Source: Patescibacteria group bacterium
GTDB lineage: Bacteria; Patescibacteriota; Minisyncoccia; UBA6257; UBA9933
DNA length: 42,292 nt
Direction of reading: 5' to 3'
Assembly: GCA_030017615.1 (NCBI GenBank)
Contig: JASEIG010000007.1
Location: 1-42,292, forward strand
The notes under the pieces are model-generated. The model searched no databases. It was not told where the DNA came from and saw nothing but the letters and a program-made list of their open reading frames with translations. Shown here one piece after another: positions 62-21,525 of the stretch. The translations under genes were made by a program, and so were the position numbers. How positions within the stretch are numbered: the first letter of the stretch is position 1; every line of letters starts with the position of its first letter.

Positions 62-1024
62 TTATTTCTCTTTTTTTATTTTATTTAAAATCTTTTTTAC
101 TTTTTCCAAACTATTCCAATCGTAAATGGAAATCGGAACAATCGATTTATTCAATTTTTTAAGCGCTGTTAATTTTTCTCTTAATTTTTTGAGAGTAATC
201 ATATCTGTTTTTGTTAAAAAAAGATATTCCGGTTTTTTAATCAATTCTTTATTAAATAATTCCAATTCCTTTTTAACTGTTTTGTAATCATTTGACGGAT
301 TTTCTGATTCGCTGGAAATAAAATGGAAAATTATTTTTGTTCTTTCAATATGATTTAAAAATTTTATTCCCAACCCCTTTCCTTCAAAAGCGCCTTTTAT
401 CAACCCGGGAATATCCGCTAAAATTAATTCGTAATAAGAACCCAAATTCGGTTCCAAAGTGGTAAACGGATAATTAGCCACCTTGCTTTTTGCGTTTGTC
501 AGTTCGTTAAGCAGACTGGATTTTCCGACATTGGGTAATCCGACAAATCCGATATCGGCAATTAATTTTAATTCCAGCCGCATATCAAACTCTTCTCCAA
601 GCGTTCCTTCTTTAAATTGTTTCGGACTGGTGTTAGTGGGGGATCGGAATTTATAATTTCCTTTTCCGCCACGCCCGCCCTTCGCCGCTAAAATTTTTTC
701 TCCAATTTTCGTGATTTCAAAAATTTGATTTGTGTTTAGATTATAAACCACCGTGCCGATTGGAATTTTTAAAATAAGATTTCCCACGTCTGCTCCGTCA
801 TTAAACTGCGGTTTTCCATCGCCTCCTTTCTGGGCTTTGATTTCTTTTTTATATCTAAATTGGCTTAAAGCGTTCAAATCGGAAACTCCTTCAAAATAAA
901 TACTCCCGCCGCTTCCGCCGCTTCCGCCGGACGGTCCCAAACTAAGCATATTTTTGTTGAACGCCACCGCGCCCCTTCCGCCGTCTCCTGCTTTGATTTT
1001 TATTTTAACATCGTCAATAAGCAT
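62..1024 (-). CDS. obg: Obg/CgtA family ribosome-associated GTPase
   Basis: GTPase involved in late assembly of the large ribosomal subunit. Residues 1-158 form the glycine-rich Obg fold (runs such as GPSGGSGGSGGS and KGGRGGKGN). The G domain follows: G1 GLPNVGKSS at 162-170, FTT switch at 187-189, G3 DIPG at 204-207 and G4 TKTD at 271-274. G4 is usually NKxD or NKID, so Thr in the first position is a mild variant. At 320 residues it lacks the C-terminal OCT extension of some homologues. There is no clear Shine-Dalgarno site before the ATG. The downstream sugar dehydrogenase is almost contiguous. Identification is firm. Confidence 0.96.
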   Translation of the reverse strand: MLIDDVKIKIKAGDGGRGAVAFNKNMLSLGPSGGSGGSGGSIYFEGVSDLNALSQFRYKKEIKAQKGGDGKPQFNDGADVGNLILKIPIGTVVYNLNTNQIFEITKIGEKILAAKGGRGGKGNYKFRSPTNTSPKQFKEGTLGEEFDMRLELKLIADIGFVGLPNVGKSSLLNELTNAKSKVANYPFTTLEPNLGSYYELILADIPGLIKGAFEGKGLGIKFLNHIERTKIIFHFISSESENPSNDYKTVKKELELFNKELIKKPEYLFLTKTDMITLKKLREKLTALKKLNKSIVPISIYDWNSLEKVKKILNKIKKEK

Positions 1025-1104
1025 ATTTTAAAACAATATTTTGGATAATTCTTTCATTCCCATAATTGTACTCTAAAATTTTTTTTTAACAGATATGAAA
1101 ATAG

Positions 1105-1133
1105 AAAAGGGCCTTTTAAAGATAAGCCCTTTT
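1105..1133. terminator. A/T-flanked inverted repeat, possible bidirectional terminator
   Basis: AAAAGGGC (1105-1112) pairs exactly with GCCCTTTT (1126-1133) across a 13-nt loop. The A-run on one side and T-run on the other resemble a weak bidirectional terminator. It lies between divergently transcribed obg and the pseudouridine synthase, so it more likely marks a short transcript or a leader than the end of either gene. Confidence 0.4.
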
Positions 1134-1148
1134 ATAGGAGGATTGGTC

Positions 1149-1207
1149 GGTTTGTGAAAACGAGTAAATTTAAATAGATTGTAATATGAGGCTCGTTCCC
1201 ACAAACC
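1149..1207. other. Long imperfect hairpin between obg and rluB-like gene
   Basis: GGTTTGTG (1149-1156) pairs with CACAAACC (1200-1207). After a 2x2 internal loop, AACGAG (1159-1164) pairs with CTCGTT (1192-1197). This gives 14 base pairs around a 27-nt AU-rich loop. An AGGAGG stretch (1136-1141) lies just upstream, and GTG at 1154 would open a 7-codon ORF (to 1177) inside the 5' arm. It could be a small RNA or a leader of the rluB-like gene. No known family was recognised. Confidence 0.45.
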
Positions 1208-1336
1208 GTATAAATTAAATTTTTAAGATACTAATTACATCTTAACGGAATTAAATGATTTGTCAATAGCCTGTAAATTTAAGGCCGTCCGGTCAATTTG
1301 CTTCATTTTTGCGGCTATTTCATTTAGTATTGAATA

Positions 1337-2032
1337 ATGCGCATACAAAAATACCTTTCGCAAAAAAGAATATTATCCCGCAGAGAAACAGAGGATTGCA
1401 TTCGCAAAGGGCTTATTGCCGTAAACGGGAAAATCGTGCGAGAACTCGGCGTTCAAATTGACCCCGCGAAAGACAGAGTAGAAATTTTATCAGCCGGCAG
1501 ATCCGAATCAAATAAAAAAATAACTATTGCCATAAACAAGCCAAAAGGGATTGTCTCGTCAAAAAATAAATCGGAAGGGATTACTGTATTTGAATTTTTC
1601 CCGCAATTCAAAAATTTGAACGCTGTCGGCAGACTGGATAAAGACAGTGAAGGATTATTATTGCTTTCAAATGACGGAGTGGTAACGTCCGCCGTTACCG
1701 GAACCGGTCATAAAATTGAAAAAGAATATGTGGTTTCCGTTCGCGGAAAAATCAGTCCGGGAAAAATTAAAAAAATGGAAAATGGAATTAAACTGGAAGA
1801 AGGAATAACTTTACCCGCCAAAGTCAGGCTGTTAAACCCCCGTACGTTTATAATTATTTTAAGAGAGGGGAGAAAACATCAAATCAGAAGAATGGCGAAC
1901 GCGCTTTATCTTACAATTACGAAATTGAAGCGCATAAGAATCGGCAATATTCATTTGGGCGATATTGCGGTTGGCGAATTCCGCCCGCTTACTAAAATTG
2001 AAACGGAAAAACTTAAAAAAATGGCCGAATAA
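1337..2032 (+). CDS. RsuA/RluB-family rRNA pseudouridine synthase
   Basis: Converts a specific uridine of ribosomal RNA to pseudouridine. Residues 1-50 are an S4 RNA-binding domain (RIQKYLSQKRILSRRE, then GLIAVNG). The catalytic domain carries the family signature GRLDKDSEGLLLLSNDG at 98-114, with Asp101 as the catalytic aspartate, and the later EGRKHQIRRM motif. Length, 231 residues, is normal. RsuA (16S), RluB, RluE and RluF (23S) share these motifs, so the exact rRNA target is undecided; the S4 domain favours RsuA/RluB/RluF over RluE. It starts at ATG with no obvious Shine-Dalgarno site. Confidence 0.92.
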   Translation: MRIQKYLSQKRILSRRETEDCIRKGLIAVNGKIVRELGVQIDPAKDRVEILSAGRSESNKKITIAINKPKGIVSSKNKSEGITVFEFFPQFKNLNAVGRLDKDSEGLLLLSNDGVVTSAVTGTGHKIEKEYVVSVRGKISPGKIKKMENGIKLEEGITLPAKVRLLNPRTFIIILREGRKHQIRRMANALYLTITKLKRIRIGNIHLGDIAVGEFRPLTKIETEKLKKMAE

Positions 2033-2141
2033 TATGCGGTAAAAACTTAAATTTTAAGTTGAATTAAGCGAGTTTTTACTGTAAATTTTTAAATGACAGA
2101 TTTAGATTTTTATTGTTAATTATAAATTGCGAATTTTATAA

Positions 2142-2215
2142 TGCGGGATCATCTAATGGTAGGATGCGACTCTCTGAAAGTCGTCATCTAGGTTCGAATC
2201 CTAGTCCCGCAGCCA
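2142..2215 (+). tRNA. tRNA-Gln (anticodon CTG)
   Basis: Complete cloverleaf: acceptor TGCGGGA pairs with TCCCGCA, anticodon stem CGACT/AGTCG encloses CTCTGAA (anticodon CTG, reading CAG), and T-arm CTAGG-TTCGAAT-CCTAG. Discriminator is G and CCA is genome-encoded (2213-2215). The D stem is short (ATC/GAT). Confidence 0.93.
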
Positions 2216-2305
2216 GTTTGTAAAGTTTGCGTTTTCCGCCTCGCTCGGACGGGCAAAAATTCCTTCATATAGAAATTAAAATTCTCAATAAAAATCATTT
2301 TATTT

Positions 2306-3172
2306 TTAATTTAATATTACCGGATTTTTCCCCTCAATTTGAATTTTTTTAAGTTTTAATTTTCTTTCGGCGTTAAGCGTTGCTTCCAAAATTTTTATTC
2401 TTTTTCCTCCACCAAACCGCGATTTTTCAGTCCAAACCCCCGGCTCCGGATTAAGAGCTTTTATTTTTTGATAAATTGATTTTGCCAAATCTCCTCCATC
2501 GTTTTGCGCATTTTCCAAATCGGCGGGGTCTATAAAACCGTCGTGTGTCATAAATTTTTTCGTAAAAGTCGCGTCCGATTCTATTTGAATTCGGGGTTTA
2601 ATTTCCTGCTTTATTAATTTCTGAAAATTTTCGGCTAAAAGATTTCCTCCCAACCCGGCTAATTTTTTTTGAAGTTCGGAATAATTCATATCGTTTATTT
2701 CCAAATTTTTTTGGGCGATTATCGGTCCGTGGTCAACTTTTGAATCCACAAAATAAAGCGTTACTCCCGTTTCCTTCTCGTCGTCCAGTATTGCGGTCTG
2801 GATAGGGGAAGAACCGCGGTATTTTGGAAGTAACGACGGATGCACTCCGATTATCCCGAATTTTGGAATATCAATCACGTCTTGCGTTATTATTTTGGCG
2901 TAAGCTGCGATTACAAAAAAATCCGGCTCCAATTCTTTTATCTTATTTTTAAAATCCTCGTCCAATTTTTCCGGTTGCATAATTTTTATCCGTCCGGCGT
3001 TTTCCGCGTTGCTTTGTATTAAAATTTTAGTCGGCGGGGGAATAATTATTTTTTTTCTTCCAGTCGGACGGTCGGGATTGCATACCAAAACCGACGGGAC
3101 ATATCCGTTTTCTAACAGTTTTTCCAAAACAATTTTAGCGAACTCGGGAGTTCCAAAAAACACAAATTTCAT
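2306..3172 (-). CDS. fmt: Methionyl-tRNA formyltransferase
   Basis: Formylates initiator Met-tRNA using 10-formyltetrahydrofolate. N-terminal Rossmann-like start FVFFGTPEFA (3-12), conserved CNPDRPTGRK (31-40) and substrate loop HPSLLPKYRG (111-120). Catalytic His111 and Asp147 (KVDHGP) are present. The catalytic Asn two residues before the His in E. coli Fmt (NVH) is Gly109 here (GVH). At 288 residues it is shorter than the roughly 315 of E. coli, with a reduced C-terminal domain. def, the matching deformylase, lies about 0.5 kb away on the same strand with a convergent gene between. Identification is firm; activity with the Gly substitution is unproven. Confidence 0.94.
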   Translation of the reverse strand: MKFVFFGTPEFAKIVLEKLLENGYVPSVLVCNPDRPTGRKKIIIPPPTKILIQSNAENAGRIKIMQPEKLDEDFKNKIKELEPDFFVIAAYAKIITQDVIDIPKFGIIGVHPSLLPKYRGSSPIQTAILDDEKETGVTLYFVDSKVDHGPIIAQKNLEINDMNYSELQKKLAGLGGNLLAENFQKLIKQEIKPRIQIESDATFTKKFMTHDGFIDPADLENAQNDGGDLAKSIYQKIKALNPEPGVWTEKSRFGGGKRIKILEATLNAERKLKLKKIQIEGKNPVILN

Positions 3173-3205
3173 AGTTGTAAATCAAGTTTCAATTATTGAC
3201 GATTA

Positions 3206-3214
3206 TTATCCACA
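3206..3214 (+). promoter_or_regulatory. Consensus DnaA box TTATCCACA
   Basis: Exact match to the 9-mer DnaA box in the gap between divergent fmt and the deoxyribosyltransferase-like gene, just upstream of the promoter of the latter. Two further exact copies are at 22798 and 26578. Confidence 0.4.
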
Positions 3215-3221
3215 TTCGTAT

Positions 3222-3250
3222 TTGCTTTAAAAATATACAATTTATATAAT
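3222..3250 (+). promoter_or_regulatory. Sigma70-like promoter of the 3258 gene, probably leaderless
   Basis: TTGCTT (3222-3227), 17-bp spacer, TATAAT (3245-3250). The ATG of the gene begins 8 bases after the -10 box, about where transcription should start, so the mRNA would be leaderless. No Shine-Dalgarno site fits in between. Confidence 0.6.
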
Positions 3251-3257
3251 TATACCA

Positions 3258-3683
3258 ATGAAATTTTTTATTGCATCCAGGTGGAAAAATAAAGAAGAAG
3301 TTGAACGGCTCAGCGAAGAACTGAAAGGGAGAGGGCATCAAGTCTATTCTTTTCTTGAAAGCGGAGCAAACCTTTTAACGGGTATGCCCATTGAAGCGGA
3401 AATGAAAGTTTTCAGCGAAGCGCTGGCTAATTGGAGAAACGACCCAAGAATTTCTCAGATTTTTGATTTTGAAATCAAAGGGTTAAAAGAATGCGACGCG
3501 CTTATCCTGCTTTTGCCCGCGGGAGATTCTTCGCATGTTGAAGCGGGTGCCGCTTACGGAATGGGGAAAAAAATAATCGCTATCGGACCCGTTGCCAAAC
3601 CGGAGGTGATTTATTTAATGTTCAACCATCTTTATTTGGACGTTTCTTCTTTTTTGGCGGATTTACACAATATTGTCGGTTAA
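3258..3683 (+). CDS. Nucleoside 2-deoxyribosyltransferase-like protein
   Basis: A 141-residue protein with the compact alpha/beta fold of the nucleoside 2-deoxyribosyltransferase family. It starts MKFFIASRW and has a central hydrophobic strand ECDALILLLPAG (79-89), followed by SSHVEAGAAYGMGKK (91-105). The Glu (E95) plus the GxAxGxGK pattern matches the family's active-site helix. Such enzymes move deoxyribose between bases or act as nucleotide hydrolases. Its 3' end overlaps the end of convergent def by 4 bases. The fold is fairly certain; the substrate is not, and related folds are also used for signalling nucleotides. Confidence 0.72.
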   Translation: MKFFIASRWKNKEEVERLSEELKGRGHQVYSFLESGANLLTGMPIEAEMKVFSEALANWRNDPRISQIFDFEIKGLKECDALILLLPAGDSSHVEAGAAYGMGKKIIAIGPVAKPEVIYLMFNHLYLDVSSFLADLHNIVG

Positions 3684-4247: not shown

Positions 4248-4556
4248 TTATTTTTTACTCTTGTTTTTACTTTTAAATTTTTTTAACACAATTCTCTTTT
4301 TTAAAATCGCCTTGCTTTGCAGAACTTTCATAAAATACCCGCCTTTATTTTTAATATTTTTTCTGTCTGAAACATCGCGGGCGATGCCCATTAAAGTTCC
4401 CTCGTCGTATTTCTTGGCGAGCCCCATATAAAGAGCCTTATGTTTTTCATCATTCAATAAATGGGCGATTTCCAAACCAATCAGCTGGAAACGCCTATAA
4501 ATATGCGACTTTTTGCCCCGCTCTTTTAATTCTTTAATGTAATCTTTATTAATCAT
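4248..4556 (-). CDS. Conserved hypothetical basic protein
   Basis: A 102-residue protein of unknown function. It has a helical N-terminal half (INKDYIKELKERGKKSHIYRRFQLIGLEIAHLLND) and a very lysine-rich C-terminus (KKRIVLKKFKSKNKSKK), with no membrane segment or signal. The basic tail suggests nucleic-acid or ribosome binding, which is only an inference. It lies 49 bases upstream of def on the same strand and downstream of the RNA block at 4730-5047, so all may share a transcript. The sequence resembles small proteins common in CPR genomes, but no named family is recognised. Confidence 0.7.
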   Translation of the reverse strand: MINKDYIKELKERGKKSHIYRRFQLIGLEIAHLLNDEKHKALYMGLAKKYDEGTLMGIARDVSDRKNIKNKGGYFMKVLQSKAILKKRIVLKKFKSKNKSKK

Positions 4557-4699: not shown

Positions 4700-4729
4700 C
4701 GAAGGCGATTAAAAAAAATTGACTAAAAA

Positions 4730-4806
4730 ATATGGTGGGGACGATAGGATATAATCCTATGACTAAGATTTTTTATAGTTTTAAAAAATCCCGCTTTTAC
4801 GTCCCC
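4730..4806 (-). ncRNA. tRNA-like three-stem element with encoded ACCA end
   Basis: Read on the minus strand, GGGGACG pairs with CGTCCCC as a 7-bp acceptor-like stem, followed directly by ACCA. Inside are a 5-bp stem ATAGG/CCTAT with a 7-nt loop in the T-arm position, and an 8-bp stem GATTTTTT/AAAAAATC in the anticodon-arm position. There is no convincing D-arm and the T-loop (ATTATAT) lacks the TTCRANY consensus. It may be a decayed tRNA, a tRNA mimic or a processed structural RNA. It is not a tmRNA: it is far too short and has no tag-coding segment. Confidence 0.45.
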
Positions 4807-4828
4807 TTTGAAAATTAAAGAGAAATGA

Positions 4829-4901
4829 TCGGACCGAGAGGATTTGAACCTCCGACCTCCAGCTGGTATGCTGGCGCGCTGCCGGACTGCGCCACAGTCC
4901 G
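4829..4901 (-). tRNA. tRNA-Pro-like gene with a 6-nt anticodon loop
   Basis: The body is a good tRNA: acceptor CGGACTG/CGGTCCG (C1-G72 and A73, as in bacterial tRNA-Pro), D-arm GCGC-AGTCCGGCA-GCGC, and T-arm GGAGG-TTCAAAT-CCTCT. The anticodon stem CCAGC/GCTGG, however, encloses only ATACCA, six bases instead of seven, so no standard Pro anticodon (NGG) is present. If the T is U33 the triplet would be ACC. CCA is not encoded (ATCA follows the stem). It is either a one-base-deleted pseudo-tRNA, a specialised tRNA-like RNA, or carries a sequencing error. Confidence 0.6.
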
Positions 4902-4922
4902 AATACCATTTCGTATTTTGGT

Positions 4923-5047
4923 AGACTCGGAAAGGAACTTTTGCGAATGTGAACTCGCATGTTTTCCTAACCGAGTCTTGGTGGTAGCAGGGCGGGAACT
5001 TAATCCCTCGGCTTAACGGCTTCTTAGTTTCAAAGCCTTTTCCCTGC
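4923..5047 (-). ncRNA. Structured RNA upstream of the tRNA-Pro-like gene
   Basis: On the minus strand two stem-loop modules precede the tRNA. Module A (5047-4987) is closed by GCAGGG/CCCTGC and contains GGCTT/AAGCC and GGGA/TCCC hairpins. Module B (4978-4923) is an 18-bp interrupted hairpin: AGACTCGG/CCGAGTCT, AGGAA/TTCCT and TGCGA/TCGCA around an 8-nt loop. Both are followed by ACCA (TACCACCA after A, ACCA after B), like the neighbouring tRNA-like units. No Rfam family is recognised; RNase P, SRP, tmRNA, T-box and group I intron motifs were looked for and not found. The open reading frames across it are spurious. Confidence 0.5.
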
Positions 5048-5251
5048 AAAAGCGTATTTATACTCTATTTGAGCCATAAACACGTAAATTTGTTAATTTT
5101 TAAAAGTTCTAAAATATAAGCTAAAGCGTATTAAAATACTGTTCAATTGTCAATATTTGCCGGGCAGTCTAATTAATTAAACCGCGATATTGAAAATATT
5201 TTAAAAGATACGCAAAAATAAAAAAAATCGGTTCACTTTTATTAAAAATAA

Positions 5252-21099: not shown

Positions 21100-21135
21100 A
21101 AATTGCTAATTGCACGATTGCAAGATTTGAAAATT
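21100..21135. repeat. AT-rich repeat before the four-helix-bundle gene
   Basis: TTGCTAATTGCACGATTGCA-type sequence directly precedes the inserted gene; a matching tract follows it at 21528-21573. Confidence 0.5.
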
Positions 21136-21525
21136 ATGACATTCAAAAAATTTGAAGATTTGCCAATTTGGCAAGAAAGAAGATTATTAGCCAAAATTAT
21201 ATATACGACATCGTCAAAATCAAATTTTAAAGATTTTTCGCTTCGTGATCAAATGAGACGCTGTGTTGTTTCGTTTTCATCAAATATAGCCGAAGGATTT
21301 GAAAGAGGATCTAATAAAGAACTTATTCAATTTTTATATATTGCCAAATGGTCTTTAAGAGAACTACGTTCTCAATCTTATTTAGCGCTTGACAGCAGTT
21401 TAATTAATAATGCTGATTTTGATACTATTATAAGTAAGTGTTCAAATTTATCTGCAAAGACAAATAATTTTATTAAATATCTTATGAACTCTGAATTAAC
21501 CAAACTTAGACATAAATCCAGATAG
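21136..21525 (+). CDS. Four-helix bundle protein (S23/IVP family)
   Basis: 129 residues starting MTFKKFEDLPIWQERR, with the family signature RDQMRRCVVSFSSNIAEGFERGSNKELIQFLYIAKWSLRELRSQ (conserved S-IAEG-R and the SLxEL-like helix). Members were first noted in intervening sequences of 23S rRNA genes and are widespread as isolated inserts in bacterial and CPR genomes; their function is unknown. Here it lies between two minor pilins on the same strand, flanked by repeat tracts, so it looks like an insertion into the pilus operon. ATG at 21136 is chosen because the upstream extension is repeat sequence. Confidence 0.9.
   Translation: MTFKKFEDLPIWQERRLLAKIIYTTSSKSNFKDFSLRDQMRRCVVSFSSNIAEGFERGSNKELIQFLYIAKWSLRELRSQSYLALDSSLINNADFDTIISKCSNLSAKTNNFIKYLMNSELTKLRHKSR

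Follow-up and report, generated by a model that had tools for sequence, protein, structure and literature searches.

On the minus strand of the 42,292-nucleotide stretch of DNA analysed here (the window), four consecutive units running from 5047 to 4733 are each closed by a stem and followed by an ACCA-like end. A preliminary description of this block offered two explanations, a polycistronic precursor of small tRNA-like RNAs that is processed at each CCA, or a decayed tRNA cluster. What kind of RNA, then, does the block specify? The reading we favour, with moderate confidence, is that it is one structured non-coding RNA, in which a tRNA-like domain that does not decode is embedded. The comparisons below use the window's own genome (G000; Wolfebacteria) and its relatives, in particular Ca. 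Wolfebacteria bacterium GW2011_GWE2_44_13 (G001) of the sister genus.

Layout and folding of the block

All four closing stems are present where they were first described (Table 1). ACCA lies 0 to 2 bases from the 3' end of the stem in three of the four, and none of 20,000 dinucleotide shuffles gave three, although this test somewhat favours the observation because it used stem ends read off the observed fold. As the preliminary description supposed, the block as a whole matches no known family in an Rfam search. (A 108-aa reading frame covers the block at 4723-5049, but it is probably spurious; a Pfam search with it gave no match, and the possibility of a protein gene was rejected on this basis.)

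Table 1. Features of the block and its flanks, in window coordinates
Feature	Position	Strand	Description	Evidence
Upstream box	5060..5068	minus	ATAGAGTAT, 12 bases before module A; possible promoter element	copy counts in G000 and G001
Module A	4987..5047	minus	three-way-junction-like, followed by TACCACCA (4979-4986)	fold z -1.4
Module A closing stem	5047-5042/4992-4987	minus	GCAGGG/CCCTGC
Module B	4919..4978	minus	long imperfect hairpin, followed by ACCA	fold z -7.4
Module B closing stem	4978-4971/4930-4923	minus	AGACTCGG/CCGAGTCT
Outer helix, 5' strand	4907..4912	minus	GAAAUG; extends the tRNA-like acceptor stem	extension scoring; fold
tRNA-like domain	4829..4901	minus	embedded; tRNA-Pro-type body, A discriminator	Rfam tRNA 52.4 bits; ARAGORN, without anticodon; 17/17 pairs kept across six units
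tRNA-like closing stem	4901-4895/4836-4830	minus	CGGACTG/CGGTCCG	sequence; fold
Anticodon loop	4864..4869	minus	six bases, AUACCA	sequence; ARAGORN
Outer helix, 3' strand	4822..4827	minus	CAUUUC; at the place of a mature tRNA's CCA	extension scoring; fold
3' unit	4733..4806	minus	D-armless tRNA-like module with abutting T-arm-like hairpin, followed by ACCA	Rfam tRNA 25.7 bits; fold z -4.4
3' unit closing stem	4806-4800/4743-4737	minus	GGGGACG/CGTCCCC
T-run	4724..4732	minus	ATATTTTTT, after the 3' unit; possible terminator tail	sequence

The whole block is far more stable than its shuffles (z -6.8). Tested alone, module B is significantly more stable than its shuffles, as is the 3' unit; the tRNA-like domain is moderately so (z -2.1), and module A is not. 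The minimum-energy fold of the block disrupts the tRNA-like cloverleaf; a structure that retains both the cloverleaf and the outer helix costs 1.1 kcal/mol more than this minimum, and the tRNA-like acceptor pairs have an ensemble probability of only 0.03 under an energy model that ignores tertiary contacts. Module B forms a long, simple hairpin and is not tRNA-like. The 3' unit, at E 0.001 for the genome, is the sole sub-threshold tRNA match genome-wide at E up to 10. Searches of 60 relatives found no sequence relatives of module A, module B, or the 3' unit. Transcription as a single minus-strand RNA of about 320 bases would start near 5050 and end around 4725 at the T-run, which a terminator scan did not call.

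A tRNA fold with no readable anticodon

The central unit has the 7-bp acceptor, D arm and T arm of a canonical tRNA, but its anticodon loop has six bases in place of seven, and ARAGORN reports the unit as tRNA-???, with no assignable anticodon. The unit is thus a genuine tRNA fold without being a tRNA gene, and its characterization as a normal tRNA body does not hold. Similar loops are UUACCA in L249 c9603-9685 and CACCA in L073 10903-10977 (G001). The end of the unit is ATCA, overlaps the outer helix and does not encode CCA. Ordinary bacterial tRNA-Pro shares with the unit its body, C1-G72 and A73 (one from a Paracoccus plasmid shows a likeness of about 78%), and differs from it in the proline anticodon, the CCA and the acceptor, which in the window unit is extended. 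The normal tRNA-Pro genes of the host genome (UGG, GGG) sit elsewhere and have a different body.

The extension consists of pairing between leader and trailer next to the acceptor stem. It was scored after an initial measure, spacer pairing in 40-base flanks on each side, had overlapped with ordinary tRNAs and given no clean separation. The median extension is -8.4 kcal/mol for 12 aberrant units vs -2.3 for 117 other tRNAs (p 1.2e-7, a value to be taken as a guide, because adjacent units at a single locus each entered the count and the genomes share ancestry). The extension predicted for the window unit, which surrounds an internal loop, is -8.5 kcal/mol; a stronger one is seen in only 3 of the 117 other tRNAs, each of them helix-embedded and one nested in another tRNA. 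Given this predicted pairing, the unit would not have the free acceptor end, with unpaired leader and trailer, of a canonical tRNA. The units of the sister genus likewise have acceptor stems extended by outer pairing, with the bases around the CCA in or beside the extension helix.

Other pairings are available in this region. The AUACCA loop is fully complementary to UGGUAU (4903-4908, minus strand), which lies just upstream of the tRNA-like domain and overlaps the outer helix, a possible alternative pairing. In addition, the 5' acceptor strand CGGACUG could pair perfectly with CAGUCCG in the D loop (both within 4883-4901, minus strand), giving a competing hairpin.

Covariation in the tRNA-like domain was examined with an alignment (A2) of six units: that of the window, those of four sister genomes, and one found within the 23S rRNA gene of another genome (G012). 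Every unit has standard pairs at all 17 places examined, which make up the D and T stems and the acceptor stem together with one pair of its extension (102/102 cells paired), although pairing is in part expected, since the units were picked for being tRNA-like. Seven of the 17 pairs have compensatory changes on both sides; none of 500 shuffles scores as high for covariation, and the signal collapses in slid controls. What the covariation demonstrates is that the tRNA fold is maintained; it does not bear on the larger RNA or on the other modules, which lie outside the alignment, and its support is for this one domain.

Relatives of the block and comparison with known RNAs

Among 244 genomes of the order, a tRNA-Pro-like unit with an ACCAG loop was detected by a loop-pattern scan only in G000 and G001; the same scan of one genome per species returned only G001, and a viral scan with the pattern gave no match. 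The G001 unit lies in the spacer between topA and ligA, together with further tRNA-likes that bear extended or odd anticodon arms. Each of the four sister-genus genomes sampled has a string of aberrant tRNA-likes in the topA-ligA spacer, and nearly all of these units encode CCA. When G020 is compared with G021, the insert in the anticodon arm of the first unit agrees in 26 of 55 columns vs 89% identity for the rest of the locus. (In G001, palindromic repeats of about 60 bases, which recur several times in the genome, flank the topA-ligA spacer at L073 10165-10229 and 12344-12404.)

The window block shares with these loci an aberrant, helix-embedded tRNA-like domain and a similar upstream box. 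The 9-mer ATAGAGTAT, which was noticed before it was counted, has four copies (both strands) in each of G000 and G001, one of them just upstream of each cluster, a suggestive link between the two; at the corresponding place G020 and G021 have TAGAGTA and G017 has TGGAGTA. None of 34 tRNA hits in G000 has TAGAGTA in the 60 bases that precede it. The chromosomal place is not shared, in that no tRNA-like lies upstream of ligA in G000 (L261), and the other modules of the block have no match that would give alignable 5' and 3' domains. Taken together, homology of the window block to the sister loci is probable, and the block is probably the counterpart of their tRNA-studded RNA. An undescribed structured RNA is favoured over ordinary or dead tRNA genes because related genomes keep comparable loci.

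Absence from close relatives had been named beforehand as an observation that would count against the block. In part it is seen: no homologue of the whole block was found in 60 relatives, a comparison set that includes no second genome of the window's own genus, but the tRNA-like domain and the overall plan do recur. Phage and plasmid matches to the block were of tRNA size only and were discarded as ordinary tRNAs. A shared gene neighbourhood was also rejected, because the gene at 4248-4556 has no adjoining tRNA in 29 relative loci, except for an ordinary tRNA-Gln more than 1 kb away in one. A survey of six genomes of other genera with the tRNA model, which is blind to clusters of non-tRNA-like modules, and a reading of 20 odd spots yielded one 23S insertion, several nested tRNAs and no further cluster.

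Several known systems combine tRNA units with a longer RNA. GOLLD RNA is a large structured RNA of bacteria and phages, of unknown function, which sometimes has tRNAs in a linker region (PMC12286853). The block resembles it as a structured RNA with tRNA units, but it shows no sign of a phage setting, its tRNA-likes are non-decoding and helix-embedded, and the Rfam models of GOLLD and ROOL do not match it. The bacterial Y RNA YrlA is likewise a longer non-coding RNA that contains a tRNA-like domain (PMC7790460). However, identity with Y RNA was rejected because a search of six genomes found a Ro60/TROVE gene in none of them; the Y RNA model gives a sub-threshold match in L002 only and none in the window. 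With tmRNA, the window unit shares a tRNA-like end without an anticodon, but no gene that joins a tag reading frame to a tRNA-like domain is called in the window, and normal tmRNA genes are present elsewhere in G000 (L246) and G001 (L199). The idea that the block is a missing housekeeping RNA in disguise was rejected, since tmRNA and RNase P RNA both sit elsewhere in the genome. A literature search, whose coverage was mostly of papers outside subscription, found no account of such loci.

Competing explanations and the wider setting

The view of the block as a multi-module tRNA-like RNA locus holds up, but the release of small RNAs from it is not supported. In such a precursor, RNase P and 3' processing would free several tRNA-like RNAs, each ending in CCA. 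The excess over chance of ACCA after three stems, the RNase P RNA of the genome and the CCA encoded by nearly all sister units agree with this; nevertheless, we consider it unlikely, because CCA is missing from the window tRNA-like, whose 5' leader is predicted to pair with its 3' trailer, extending the acceptor. Moreover, the surroundings of the CCA in the sister units lie within or next to the extension helix, and module B is a hairpin rather than a tRNA-like. The decayed cluster, remnants of a tRNA array that was perhaps acquired elsewhere and now drifts without function, would account for the irregular anticodon loops, for a body unlike that of the host's own tRNA-Pro and for the partial tRNA copies that adjoin normal tRNAs in this family. 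It is a poor fit, and quite unlikely, because the tRNA fold is maintained, with all 17 pairs kept in six units through compensatory changes; the clusters at the same place in all four sister-genus genomes, the shared upstream box and the strong fold of the block also argue against decay.

A tRNA-like of the same make as these lies inside a full-length 23S rRNA gene of G012 (L283 1535-1614, G012:C14; Rfam LSU 193-3404), where it has an odd anticodon loop and sits in a short bracketing helix. Judging from the E. coli sequence, we take its site to be, probably, helix 45. Helix 45 is a common site of 23S rRNA intervening sequences (PMC4990558), which share with these units the character of helix-closed inserts in structured RNA. 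This raises the possibility that a tRNA-like module enters the helices of structured RNAs, to be excised or tolerated there, consistent with the helices that bracket these units, with canonical tRNAs that are also helix-embedded (some nested in other tRNAs), and with the description of 23S intervening sequences as selfish elements (PMC4990558). We regard this as very improbable for the block; the window locus is outside rRNA, and neither it nor the topA-ligA loci lie within a known RNA gene.

In the favoured reading of a single structured RNA, the tRNA fold, the lack of an anticodon and the capacity for an extended acceptor are established. The RNA would be made up of successive stem-closed modules, among them the non-decoding tRNA-like domain; the acceptor stem of this domain would stack on the outer helix and thereby fix the tRNA fold within the larger RNA. 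Its most likely role would be that of a scaffold or decoy, offering tRNA features such as the elbow and acceptor helix to tRNA-binding proteins with an altered anticodon arm, a role that we suggest with considerable doubt. Somewhat less doubtful, though still tentative, is a class of structured RNAs in Wolfebacteria built from tRNA folds that are fixed in place on helices while their anticodon arms evolve freely; such RNAs would occur as a dedicated RNA gene and even within 23S rRNA, and the block in the window would be a compact member. Although the genomes of Patescibacteria are very small, the lineages compared here keep what appear to be dedicated non-decoding tRNA-like RNAs, one apparently in ribosomal RNA; if these are real, bacterial tRNA mimicry has a new setting. 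They would also call for caution in annotation, as a standard tool labels several of the units tRNA-Gly(ACC), tRNA-Asn, tRNA-Ile or tRNA-SeC.

Other unusual tRNA arrangements were seen in these genomes. In G000, a tRNA-Thr-like body contains a normal tRNA-Thr(UGU) within its anticodon arm (L233 c19440-19609, G000:C24), and a long stem between the two bodies overlaps the inner acceptor. Two tRNA-Val(UAC) bodies are nested, one of them in the split anticodon loop of the other (L293 c798-1027, G009:C4), with a flanking helix that resembles the one around tRNA-Ser in G013 (L290 2422-2509). In G001, the anticodon regions of tRNA-Phe and tRNA-Asn (L171 7060-7368 and L182 c18618-18915) are interrupted by inserts of 213 and 225 bases, which are probably introns. 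Finally, the window itself encodes, at 21103-21525 among pilin-like genes, a four-helix-bundle protein (TIGR02436) of a family known from 23S intervening sequences.
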